A stretch of DNA of 64,000 nt, taken from Cognatitamlana onchidii. Lineage in GTDB: Bacteria > Bacteroidota > Bacteroidia > Flavobacteriales > Flavobacteriaceae. A model generated the notes under the pieces. It was not told the origin of the DNA. It did not search any database and worked only from the letters and a program-made list of their open reading frames with translations. The translations under genes were made by a program, and so were the position numbers. Below are positions 59,077-64,000 of the stretch, piece after piece (position 1 is the first letter of the stretch; each line of letters starts with the position of its first letter). The stretch is taken from the NCBI RefSeq assembly GCF_004804355.1, contig NZ_SRWZ01000005.1:1-64000 (forward strand). The letters are read 5' to 3'.

Positions 59077-60483
59077 ATGAAAAAATTTAGTCTTTATACG
59101 CATCACAAACGCATTTTAACAGATACCATTACACCCGTAACTGTATATTATAAAATACGTGATAAATACCCGAATAGTATTTTATTAGAAAGTGGTGACT
59201 ACCATAGAAACCATAAAAATTTCTCATATATCTGTTTTAACCCAATAGCCTCTATAAAAATAGAAAATGAAGTTATTTCGCAAACCTTTCCTGATGGAAG
59301 CGAAACAACTCTAGAGATTACTAATGATGTAAATGTGGTTGATGAAGTTTACAACTTTACAAAGCGATTTAACACCGAATCAGAAGAAAACTTCAAGTTT
59401 ATTAACAACGGCATTTTTGGATATACAGCCTATGATGCTGTGAGGTATTTTGAAGACATTGAGATTGGTAAAAAAGACGATTCGGTTGTTATTCCAGATA
59501 TGTATTATGCAGTTTATCAAAATATAATTGCTATCAATCATTTTAAAAACGAAGCCTATATTTTTGCACACTGTTTTAAAGGTATAGACAATAATATTGA
59601 TGAAATTGATAGACTCATTAACGTTCAAAAATTTGCTTCCTACAAATTCAATACCAAAGGAGATATAAAATCTAATCTAACAGATAATGAATTTAAAGAA
59701 CATGTTGAATTAGCGAAAAAACATTGCCAGCGAGGGGATGTTTTTCAGTTGGTTTTATCGAGACGCTTTTCACAAGAATTTACTGGTGATGATTTTAACA
59801 TCTATAGGGCCCTAAGAAGCATCAACCCATCTCCATACCTGTTTTATTTCGATTATGGCGACTTTAAAATATTTGGAAGCTCTCCAGAAGCTCAATTAAT
59901 TGTTACAGAAGGTTTAGCCGAAATACATCCCATTGCTGGTACTTTTAAACGTACCGGCGATGAGCAAAAAGATGAGGCCTTGGCAGAAAAACTTAAGAAC
60001 GACGACAAGGAAAATGCAGAACACGTTATGTTAGTGGATCTTGCACGAAATGACTTAAGCCGTCATGGAAATCAAGTAAAAGTAGAAACTTATAGAGAAG
60101 TCCAGTTTTTTTCTCATGTTATCCATTTAGTGAGTAAAGTAACAGGACAAAAATACGATACAACCTCAACCATGCAAGTAGTTGCCGACACCTTTCCTGC
60201 TGGAACATTAAGCGGTGCCCCAAAACATAGAGCCATGCAACTTATAGAGGATTACGAAAAAACAAGTAGAGGTTATTATGGCGGAGCGATAGGCTTTATG
60301 GATTTTGAAGGCAACTTTAATCATGCCATTATGATACGCACATTTTTAAGCAAGGATTACAGACTTAACTGGCAAGCGGGTGCTGGTCTAGTTTCAAAAT
60401 CAAATAAAGAAGACGAGCTGCAAGAAGTATATAATAAGTTAGGGGCATTAACAAAAGCTATTGAATTAGCGGAAGATATTTAA
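59077..60483 (+). CDS. trpE: Anthranilate synthase component I
   Basis: Makes anthranilate from chorismate and ammonia supplied by TrpG. 468 residues, complete. The chorismate-binding domain is clear: VFQLVLSRRFSQEF, SPEAQLIVTEG, HPIAGTFKRTGDEQKDEALA and MQVVADTFPAGTLSGAPKHR. The feedback-inhibition motif LLESGDYHRNHKNFSY is of the LLES type, so tryptophan inhibition is likely. First structural gene of the operon. Confidence 0.96.
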   Translation: MKKFSLYTHHKRILTDTITPVTVYYKIRDKYPNSILLESGDYHRNHKNFSYICFNPIASIKIENEVISQTFPDGSETTLEITNDVNVVDEVYNFTKRFNTESEENFKFINNGIFGYTAYDAVRYFEDIEIGKKDDSVVIPDMYYAVYQNIIAINHFKNEAYIFAHCFKGIDNNIDEIDRLINVQKFASYKFNTKGDIKSNLTDNEFKEHVELAKKHCQRGDVFQLVLSRRFSQEFTGDDFNIYRALRSINPSPYLFYFDYGDFKIFGSSPEAQLIVTEGLAEIHPIAGTFKRTGDEQKDEALAEKLKNDDKENAEHVMLVDLARNDLSRHGNQVKVETYREVQFFSHVIHLVSKVTGQKYDTTSTMQVVADTFPAGTLSGAPKHRAMQLIEDYEKTSRGYYGGAIGFMDFEGNFNHAIMIRTFLSKDYRLNWQAGAGLVSKSNKEDELQEVYNKLGALTKAIELAEDI

Positions 60484-60485
60484 AT

Positions 60486-61052
60486 ATGAAGAAGGTATTA
60501 GTTATAGATAATTACGACAGTTTTACATACAATCTTGTACACTATTTAGAAGATTTAAACTGTGATGTAACCGTTGTGAGAAACGATAAATTAACACTTG
60601 AAGATGTTGAACCTTTTGATAAAATTGTGTTATCCCCGGGCCCTGGAATTCCAGATGAAGCTGGCCTGTTAAAACCCATTATCAAAAAATACGCATCCAC
60701 TAAAAGCATTTTTGGGGTTTGCCTTGGGCAACAAGCAATAGGCGAAGTATTTGGTGGATTTCTAGATAATTTAGAGGATGTTTATCATGGTGTTGCAACG
60801 AACGTAACCATAAGTGTAGACGATGAATATATATTTAACGGTTTAGATAAAAATATTGAAGTAGGACGTTACCACTCTTGGGTTGTTAGTGCTAATTTAC
60901 CAGATAGCTTGGAAGCTACTTCGTTTGATGCAAACGGACAAATTATGTCTTTAAGGCATAAAGAATATGATGTGAGAGGTGTGCAATACCACCCAGAGTC
61001 TGTATTAACACCAGACGGTAAGAAAATTTTAGAAAATTGGGTAAATAATTAG
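60486..61052 (+). CDS. trpG: Anthranilate synthase component II (glutamine amidotransferase)
   Basis: Hydrolyses glutamine to supply ammonia to TrpE. 188 residues with SPGPGIPDEAG, the nucleophile Cys79 in FGVCLGQQAIGE, and catalytic His in GVQYHPESVLTPDG. It is 2 bp after trpE. In other bacteria such subunits can be shared with PabB; here the position next to trpE marks it as TrpG. Confidence 0.95.
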   Translation: MKKVLVIDNYDSFTYNLVHYLEDLNCDVTVVRNDKLTLEDVEPFDKIVLSPGPGIPDEAGLLKPIIKKYASTKSIFGVCLGQQAIGEVFGGFLDNLEDVYHGVATNVTISVDDEYIFNGLDKNIEVGRYHSWVVSANLPDSLEATSFDANGQIMSLRHKEYDVRGVQYHPESVLTPDGKKILENWVNN

Positions 61053-61112: not shown

Positions 61113-62108
61113 ATGAAAGACATACTTAATAGACTAATCAACCACGAAACCATCTCAACAGAAGAAGCAAAACAGGTTATTGTTAATATATCCAACGACA
61201 TGTATAACCCAAGCCAAATTGCATGTTTTCTATCGGTTTATATGATGCGCAGTATAACTATTGAAGAACTTACTGGTTTTAGAAATGCGCTTTTAGAACT
61301 GTGTGTTCCAGTAAATTTGAAAGACTTTAATGCTATTGATATTGTTGGTACTGGCGGTGATGGTAAAAACACCTTCAATATTTCAACGCTGTCCTCATTC
61401 ATTACGGCTGGTGCTGGTGTTAACGTTTCAAAGCATGGTAACTATGGGGTGTCATCAACTTCAGGGTCATCTAATGTTATGGAGAATCTGGGTGTTAAAT
61501 TTTCCAATGATGAAGATTTTTTAAAACGTTGCTTAGATCATGCTGGCATATGCATATTGCATGCTCCACTTTTTCATCCTGCCATGAAAAATGTGGCTCC
61601 AATTAGAAAAGAGCTAGGTGTTAAAACGTTTTTCAATATGCTAGGCCCTCTAGTTAACCCGTCATTTCCTAAGAATCATGTTCTTGGTGTTTTTAATTTA
61701 GAAGTTTTAAGGCTTTATAGTTTTATACACCAAAATTCCGGGCATAACTACAATATAGTTTATGCCTTAGATGGATATGATGAAATTTCCCTAACAGGTA
61801 AAGCTAAAATTGTATCCAATCATACTGAAAAATTATTCTCTCCAGAAGACTTAGGAGTCTCAAAAATAAAACAAGAAGCTATTTTTGGAGGTGATACTAT
61901 TAACGATGCAGTAAAAATATTTGAGAATATTATTCGTGGCGAAGGGACAGTTGCGCAAAACAATGTGGTATGTGCCAACGCCGGGTTAGCCATTGCCACA
62001 AGTAAGCAAATTACGCATCAAGAAGGTTTTGAAATGGCTAAAGAATCTTTGTTTTCTGGAAAAGCCAAAGCAAGTTTAGATAAATTGATTGAGTTAAGTA
62101 AATCATGA
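61113..62108 (+). CDS. trpD: Anthranilate phosphoribosyltransferase
   Basis: Adds phosphoribosyl to anthranilate. 331 residues. PRPP motif DIVGTGGDGKNTFNIST, KHGNYGVSSTSGSSNVMENL, MKNVAPIRKELGVKTFFNML and GPLVNPSFP are intact. A 60-bp gap separates it from trpG, without a visible promoter, and its stop overlaps trpC by ATGA. Confidence 0.96.
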   Translation: MKDILNRLINHETISTEEAKQVIVNISNDMYNPSQIACFLSVYMMRSITIEELTGFRNALLELCVPVNLKDFNAIDIVGTGGDGKNTFNISTLSSFITAGAGVNVSKHGNYGVSSTSGSSNVMENLGVKFSNDEDFLKRCLDHAGICILHAPLFHPAMKNVAPIRKELGVKTFFNMLGPLVNPSFPKNHVLGVFNLEVLRLYSFIHQNSGHNYNIVYALDGYDEISLTGKAKIVSNHTEKLFSPEDLGVSKIKQEAIFGGDTINDAVKIFENIIRGEGTVAQNNVVCANAGLAIATSKQITHQEGFEMAKESLFSGKAKASLDKLIELSKS

Positions 62109-62890
62109 ATATTTTAGATAAAATAACATTAGATAAACGTAAAGAAGTAGCTCTTAAAAAGAGCATAATTCCTGTTTCGCAATTAGAGCAATCGGTTTTG
62201 TTTGAAAGACCAACGGTTTCACTTGCTAACAATTTACGTAATAGTAAATCAGGTATTATCGCAGAACACAAACGTAGGTCGCCTTCAAAATCAGTTATCA
62301 ATAACACTTTAACCGTTCAAGACGTCTCTAAAGGTTATGAATCGGCTGGTGTTTGCGGCATGTCTGTATTAACAGATGGCAAGTACTTTGGAGGATCACT
62401 AGACGATTTATTAACAGCTAGGGCAAGTTGTAATTTACCGCTTCTAAGAAAAGAATTCATTATTGATTCATACCAAATACTAGAAGCCAAAGCTTATGGA
62501 GCCGATGTTATTTTGCTAATAGCTGCTATTTTATCAAGAGACGAAATCAAACAATTTTCTGAATTTGCTAAGAGTTTGAATTTAGATGTCCTGTTAGAAG
62601 TACATAATGAAGAAGAGTTACACAAGGCTGTTATGCCAAGCCTAGATATGTTAGGTGTAAACAATAGGAACTTAAAAACCTTTGAAGTGAGTTTAGAAAC
62701 TAGCAAAGGTTTAAGCAATATCATTCCAAATGATTTTGTAAAAGTTTCGGAAAGTGGCATTAGTAACATAGAAGCAATAAAAGAATTACAACCTTACGGA
62801 TACCAAGGGTTTTTAATTGGAGAAAACTTTATGAAGACTGATAATCCTGGCGAAAGTGCAGGTGCATTTATAAAAGAATTAGAGTTATGA
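62105..62890 (+). CDS. trpC: Indole-3-glycerol phosphate synthase
   Basis: Closes the indole ring. 261 residues of a TIM barrel; blocks [62 protein letters not shown] and SESGISN. Stop overlaps trpF start by ATGA, so translation is coupled. Confidence 0.96.
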
Positions 62891-63528
62891 AACTAAAAAT
62901 ATGTGGCATGAAATATCAAGATAATATCGAACAAGTTGCAGCCTTGCAACCCGATTATCTTGGATTTATTTTTTATAAAAAAACCCCTCGTCATTTCGAT
63001 ACTAAAATTCCAGAATTATCTGAAGATATTAAAAAAGTGGGGGTTTTTGTTAATGAGGAGGTTAGTACGGTTATAGAAAAAATCAATGAATTTAAATTAG
63101 ACGCCGTACAACTTCATGGCGAAGAAGCCCCTTACTATTGCAGCATATTGCGCTCAACTCAACTACTGTCAAGACCTGTTGAAATCATTAAAGTATTTTC
63201 TATTAAAGATAACTTTAACTTTAATGTGCTTGAAGCTTATGAAAATGTTTGTGACTATTACCTATTTGATACCAAAGGCAAACTTCCTGGCGGCAACGGT
63301 TATAGATTTGATTGGAGTTTATTGAATAATTATCCCTCCCAGAAACCTTTCTTTTTAAGTGGAGGCATAGGACTAGACGAAGCAGAAGCTATTAAAACAT
63401 TTAAAAATAGTGAGGTTTCAAAGTATTGTTATGCTATCGATGTAAATAGTAAATTTGAAAAAGAACCCGGATTAAAAAATGTTTCCATTTTAAGAGAATT
63501 CATTAATAAATTGAATGATAAAAAAACA
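62887..63528 (+). CDS. trpF: Phosphoribosylanthranilate isomerase, no stop before trpB (apparent TrpF-TrpB fusion)
   Basis: A TIM-barrel isomerase, residues 1-214 of one reading frame which continues into trpB without a stop. Active-site Cys6 (KICGMK), Asp128 ([17 protein letters not shown]) and [10 protein letters not shown] are present. The C-terminus runs [14 protein letters not shown] and then MNYN of TrpB. The junction contains AAAAAAA (63520-63526); with one A fewer, TrpF would end at a TGA overlapping the trpB ATG, as at trpD/trpC and trpC/trpF. The fusion may be real, slippage-dependent, or a sequence error. Confidence 0.9.
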
Positions 63529-64000
63529 ATGAATTATAATGTAGACGAAAAAGGATACTATGGCGAGTTTGGAGGGGCTTTCATCCCTGAAATGCTATAT
63601 CCTAATGTAGAAGAATTGCGCCAAAACTATCTTAAAGTTATGGCTGAACCAGATTTTCAAAAAGAGTTCAACCAACTATTAAAAGATTATGTTGGGCGTC
63701 CCTCTCCTTTGTATTTTGCAAAACGGCTTTCAGAAAAATATAATACCAAAATTTATCTGAAACGTGAAGATTTAAACCACACTGGCGCACATAAAATCAA
63801 CAATACCATCGGACAAATTTTAATGGCAAAACGTTTAGGTAAGACTAGAATTATTGCCGAAACCGGCGCAGGGCAACACGGTGTAGCTACTGCTACGGTA
63901 TGTGCTTTAATGGGATTAGAGTGTATTGTCTATATGGGTGAAATTGATATTGCCAGACAAGCACCAAACGTAGCAAGAATGAAAATGCTAGGTGCCACAG
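63529..64000 (+). CDS. trpB: Tryptophan synthase beta subunit, partial (3' end outside window)
   Basis: The first 157 residues of TrpB, which joins indole and serine with [23 protein letters not shown] is the family start; the PLP lysine is Lys89 in [15 protein letters not shown] and [20 protein letters not shown] follow. It continues in the frame of trpF (see there). trpA is expected next. Confidence 0.93.

Follow-up and report, generated by a model that had tools for sequence, protein, structure and literature searches.

A trpF-trpB fusion gene that retains its trpB start region in Cognatitamlana onchidii and other Flavobacteriaceae

One reading frame for TrpF and TrpB

The 64,000-nucleotide stretch of Cognatitamlana onchidii DNA analyzed here (the window) ends inside a trp operon, ordered trpE-G-D-C-FB-A, in which trpF and trpB are carried by one gene. 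A single reading frame runs from the trpF ATG at 62887 through a run of seven A residues (A7, 63520–63526) into the trpB ATG at 63529, which lies 642 bases downstream in the same frame, and continues without a stop to the end of the window. In the genome, this frame comprises 607 codons (607 amino acids) and its stop codon ends at contig position C8:64710, bearing out the stop-free passage across the junction described in a first-pass annotation of this DNA. The TrpF part (phosphoribosylanthranilate isomerase [PRAI]) matches PF00697 over residues 4–207 with 119.3 bits, above the family cut-off of 22.7, and the TrpB part matches TIGR00263 with 578.9 bits, above the curated cut-off of 392.45; the protein also matches PF00291. 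Four residues (C6, D130, K305, and E327, numbered as in L033, the fused protein of Algibacter mikhailovii KCTC 12710) do not vary among the 18 fused proteins of alignment A1 and, by reading, are present in the window protein. We take C6 and D130 to be the PRAI catalytic Cys and Asp, and K305 (in HKIN) and E327 (in AETGAGQHG) to be the catalytic Lys and Glu of TrpB.

One trpF match was found in the genome, and a search for a second TrpB copy returned none over the TIGR00263 cut-off other than the fused gene itself, which therefore looks like the sole source of both enzymes. Structural information on the joined domains was limited: an AlphaFold model of L033 built from 18 rows was too poor for use (mean predicted local distance difference test score, 56.9; predicted template modeling score, 0.38), and among solved structures, the best-matching stretch of each of 49 distinct sequences with E values of 1e-10 or better spanned one domain only.

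Every trp gene of this genome has a family match, and trpA is a separate gene downstream of the fusion (Table 1). The ATGA overlaps that the first-pass annotation had reported for trpD/trpC and trpC/trpF are present, at 62105–62108 and 62887–62890, respectively. Among loci from named genomes, trpC and trpA accompany the fusion in all 25 fused cases.

Table 1. Features of the trp operon within the window
Feature	Position	Strand	Remarks
trpE	59077..60483	+	Best NCBIfam match TIGR00564, 428.1 bits, below its cut-off of 517.7
trpG	60486..61052	+	TIGR00566, 179.7 bits (cut-off, 121.05)
trpD	61113..62108	+	TIGR01245, 313.9 bits (cut-off, 199.05)
trpC	62105..62890	+	NF001377, 283.9 bits (cut-off, 260); ATGA overlaps with trpD and trpF
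TrpF domain and short C-terminal linker	62887..63528	+	Residues 1–214 of the fused protein; PF00697 match
trpB start region kept within the fusion	63511..63531	+	A-rich; A at −3 (63526) and −6 (63523); ATG at 63529–63531
A7 tract	63520..63526	+	Codes for Lys-Lys and the first base of Thr; varies across fused relatives, not conserved
TrpB domain, same frame	63529..64000, continuing past the window to C8:64710	+	TIGR00263 match

Distribution and origin of the fusion

The fusion was sought in 397 genomes of the family, in 395 genomes of the phylum, and in a further set of 80 loci from named genomes. A search with the TrpF protein matched 370 of the 397 family genomes; leaving aside the window itself, 14 of the 15 best matches had open frames longer than 600 amino acids. 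The NF010376 profile, which describes a TrpF-TrpB protein, matched 384 of the 397; among the matches listed, 85 spanned the whole profile, with 53 containing at least one stop and 32, the window included, containing none. Open-frame lengths of profile matches were not used as a criterion; instead, each counted fusion was re-read by translation, and all 32 proved to be one frame. A stop-free fusion is therefore carried by at least 32 of the 397 family genomes, a lower bound. Among the named loci, 25 of 80 were fused, 54 were separate, and one had no TrpB on its piece; fused genera include Algibacter, Tamlana, Hyunsoonleella, Jejuia, Seonamhaeicola, Flaviramulus, and a Gaetbulibacter. In the phylum sample, 38 of the best-scoring matches listed spanned the profile from position 7 or earlier, and only the window's own lacked an internal stop, so that no fusion from outside the family was seen among them. 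Sixteen doubtful TrpB-only matches with long open frames, drawn from the phylum and family searches, had separate trpF and trpB in every case. Given these fused relatives, the open frame cannot be explained by chance or error; they support a true bifunctional reading frame, one of the meanings that had been considered for the locus.

The named loci and the family sample overlap, and removal of duplicates left 152 distinct loci, 44 of them fused (L083 was dropped because its TrpB is truncated). Trees were built from TrpF and TrpB, with the TrpF end and the linker excluded. In the FastTree tree of 152 rows, the window falls within a wholly fused clade of 26 rows (support, 100), so that relatives do not uniformly carry a stop at the junction. 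This tree needs 13 changes between the fused and separate states, at least 8 of them forced by well-supported branches, against about 38 when labels were shuffled. A quick IQ-TREE search, run on 124 rows after 28 far or near-identical ones were left out of the 152, likewise gave 13 changes and at least 8 forced; neither tree by itself separates gain from loss, and both carry long-branch warnings. Fused L023 and separate L021, with 71 bases between its genes, are placed in the same genus. Fusions elsewhere on the tree have linkers that differ from one another: that of L117 (G006), IPAFAGMTEI, is a translated hairpin repeat (cctgccttcgcaggaatgac), close copies of which are found between trpF and trpB in unfused relatives, among them L020 and L070. 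The sequences suggest a repeated origin of the fusion in Flavobacteriaceae, which the literature searched does not describe. What had been suspected as a sequencing error thus turns out to be a real, recurrent gene fusion, and close relatives with fused and separate versions offer a natural series for asking why enzymes of nonconsecutive pathway steps fuse.

Two further features of these junctions were observed. Hairpins resembling repetitive extragenic palindromes precede trpB in many unfused relatives (e.g., L020, L021, L070, L074, and L094), several ending in ...GGAATGAC; among 73 separate loci with spacers of at least 25 bases, a perfect inverted repeat of at least 6 bases was present in 43, an AATGAC-like motif in 28, and both in 26, as counted without a shuffled control. 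In addition, G309 (L153/L185) and G113 (L156/L186) are distant fusions of one genus with almost no linker, the TrpF tail running straight into TrpB.

TrpF-TrpB fusion is a known kind of protein, reportedly rare. The NCBIfam model NF010376 (PRK13803.1, bifunctional PRAI/TrpB) has the same two domains in the same order, and residues 1–606 of the window protein match its positions 5–596 of 600 in one stretch. The score of 784.4 bits (786.4 in the genome search) is below the curated cut-off of 819, and the window protein is accordingly not a formal member, though it shares the architecture. All 18 fused proteins of alignment A1 match this model, and among matches listed in the 397 family genomes, only G309 exceeds the cut-off (824.8). 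The name of the model is silent on an internal start. In a survey of archaeal fusion proteins, trpF-trpB fusion is reported as rare in bacteria and archaea, in a passage that specifies neither a bacterial group nor an internal start (PMC11237513). Coxiella burnetii CBU1155 is described as a TrpF-TrpB fusion of unknown activity, located beside a frameshifted trpDG in an organism that cannot make tryptophan (PMC6736304); here, in contrast, every trp gene is matched and the genome has no second TrpB. The passages of a Sargasso Sea trp survey that deal with fusions name E-G, C-F, E-PLPDE_IV, and F-TruA and do not mention F-B (PMC2395257).

Other fusions of TrpB have other partners. NF010375 (PRK13802.1) describes a TrpC-TrpB fusion, and the match of the window protein to it is confined to the TrpB part. 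Fungal tryptophan synthase is a TrpA-TrpB fusion, which resembles the window protein in having a barrel enzyme ahead of TrpB, whereas here trpA is separate and downstream. TrpA is the channeling partner of TrpB; TrpF is not. The first-pass annotation regarded a fusion of these two enzymes as odd because their steps are nonadjacent, which is fair as biochemistry, but the named family model and the published examples show that such proteins exist. The parts of the literature covered by our search contained no report that names a TrpF-TrpB fusion in Bacteroidota or a start codon within it. What is new here is the trpB ATG retained in the fused frame.

The trpB start within the fused frame

Bacteroidetes are described as lacking Shine-Dalgarno signals, with initiation in Flavobacterium johnsoniae tuned by A at −3, which favors it, and by mRNA structure, and with AUG underrepresented near starts (Baez et al. 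2019, PMC6847099). An in-frame ATG is present in 43 of the 44 distinct fused junctions, at positions ranging from six codons upstream to one codon downstream of the TrpB Met of the window. Its fate was followed in 28 rows, made up of the 26-row clade and a fused outgroup of two rows. In the linker, columns 210, 211, and 213 change 9, 6, and 7 times, respectively (mean over all columns, 1.57; median, 0), and columns 214 and 215, which hold the Met, change 3 and 7 times. The Met sits 2, 3, or 4 residues ahead of Tyr-Asn-Val, with five position changes on the tree, and is present in all 28 rows. A residue that shifts but is never lost is suggestive of a start codon rather than a structural residue, which should stay put.

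The bases around this codon resemble those of free-standing trpB starts, for which 99 of 108 were used, nine having no near ATG. A occupies −3 at 36 of 43 fused trpB starts and at a fraction of 0.80 of free-standing starts, against 99 of 538 (0.18) other in-frame ATGs; the fraction of A in the 18 bases upstream is 0.554 for fused starts, 0.538 for free-standing starts, and 0.290 for other in-frame ATGs of fused genes; and the folding energies over 50 bases are −1.42, −2.15, and −7.51 kcal/mol, respectively. Since a linker rich in Lys and Asn is already A-rich, a control was drawn from 559 codons with equal Lys and Asn content upstream, giving A at −3 in 0.65, A at −6 in 0.55, and a folding energy of −4.94. 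The clade starts exceed this control, with A at −3 in 22 of 25, A at −6 in 25 of 25, and a folding energy of −1.04 (25 of the 26 rows, one near-copy having been dropped). A start codon and its context are kept inside the longer frame, as would be expected of a gene with dual output; synonymous constraint there is weak.

We infer that this is a genuine trpF-trpB fusion gene whose single mRNA probably yields two products, the TrpF-TrpB protein and free TrpB, the latter by internal initiation. Initiation at the trpF ATG would make full-length TrpF-TrpB, and initiation at the buried trpB ATG, with A at −3 and −6 and an unstructured A-rich leader, would make free TrpB. TrpB could then be made in larger amounts than TrpF, and a share of TrpB would be left without a TrpF domain near its N terminus, available for complex formation with TrpA. 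In solved structures, the TrpB N terminus is near the TrpA contact face. Such dual output would fit a requirement for TrpB levels to follow those of TrpA and not those of TrpF.

Several observations weigh against two products. The fused row L120 (G216) is the only one without an ATG in the range given above, its nearest in-frame ATG lying 13 codons upstream. The rows compared are related, and the significance of the start-context comparisons therefore overstates their independence. Synonymous suppression at the junction is weak: out of 600 windows, those from residues 210, 212, and 215 have the 5th, 7th, and 17th lowest values, and still lower ones occur elsewhere in the fused gene. Finally, a leftover ATG is expected in recent fusions even without selection. 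Separately, the L120 lineage includes an unfused relative, L103 (Ulvibacterium marinum; 40-base gap), that is also without a near ATG; in this lineage, the TrpB N terminus is changed and apparently longer, without the usual ATG position.

The main alternative is that the 607-amino-acid bifunctional protein is the sole product and that the Met marking the former trpB start is either a remnant or retained for structure. A frame that is open and conserved across the whole clade agrees with this, as does the weak synonymous suppression. However, we consider it rather unlikely, as the Met moves yet is never lost while its neighbors turn over, which is not expected of a structural residue, and as the initiation context around it is on a par with free-standing trpB starts and stronger than in the Lys/Asn-matched control.

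Dual output from the fused gene, if the buried start is used, would mean that in Bacteroidota a gene can be fused and still be expressed independently and that a second product would be missed wherever such a gene is annotated as a single long protein. With somewhat less assurance, we lean toward extending this reading to the family as a whole, where trpF and trpB would have fused repeatedly and selection would have kept the buried trpB start, one gene giving TrpF-TrpB and free TrpB in a set ratio. If so, fusion could cost almost nothing in bacteria that initiate without Shine-Dalgarno signals, since a linker can accommodate an A-rich start.

The A7 tract at the junction

The first-pass annotation proposed that one base in the A7 tract switches the locus between fusion and coupling, and in silico base changes agreed. 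With six A residues, the frame stops after residue 214 (...NDKKQ), with the TGA overlapping the trpB ATG, and with eight it stops after residue 217 (...NDKKNNEL). Tracts of this kind are common in this DNA: the window contains 52 exact runs (34 A7 and 18 T7). Across the 26 fused members of the clade, AAA accounts for 1,116 of 1,273 Lys codons, which makes A7 nearly the default in a Lys-Lys-Thr linker. A7 is present in 14 of the 26 clade junctions and in 15 of the 44 fused junctions overall; in the remainder, the longest A run is three to six and the frame is still open. We conclude that A7 is a by-product of Lys-Lys-Thr codons with no special role.

Slippage of RNA polymerase or the ribosome at A7, which would produce a mixture of the fused protein and a TrpF terminated by the TGA overlapping the trpB ATG, had been another of the suggested meanings. 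The tract is indeed found in the window and in about half of the clade, and loss of one base would yield the ATGA overlap. It is nonetheless a very improbable explanation: the 12 clade junctions (29 overall) without a seven-A run are all in frame, so slippage is not needed, and the tract itself follows from Lys codon usage among many similar runs. The kept trpB start, which the first-pass annotation did not foresee, would be a simpler route to two products. An assembly indel, with a true sequence of six A residues and separate genes, would fall where indel errors usually occur, in a homopolymer, but is ruled out for practical purposes by separately assembled relatives with in-frame fusions, of which some share these bases and others have no A7.

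Out of frame with the fusion, an ATG at 63515 begins a frame of five codons (63515–63532) whose TGA overlaps the trpB ATG. This small frame hinges on the Asn-Asp codons, is missing from relatives with AATAAT at that point, and is probably due to chance.
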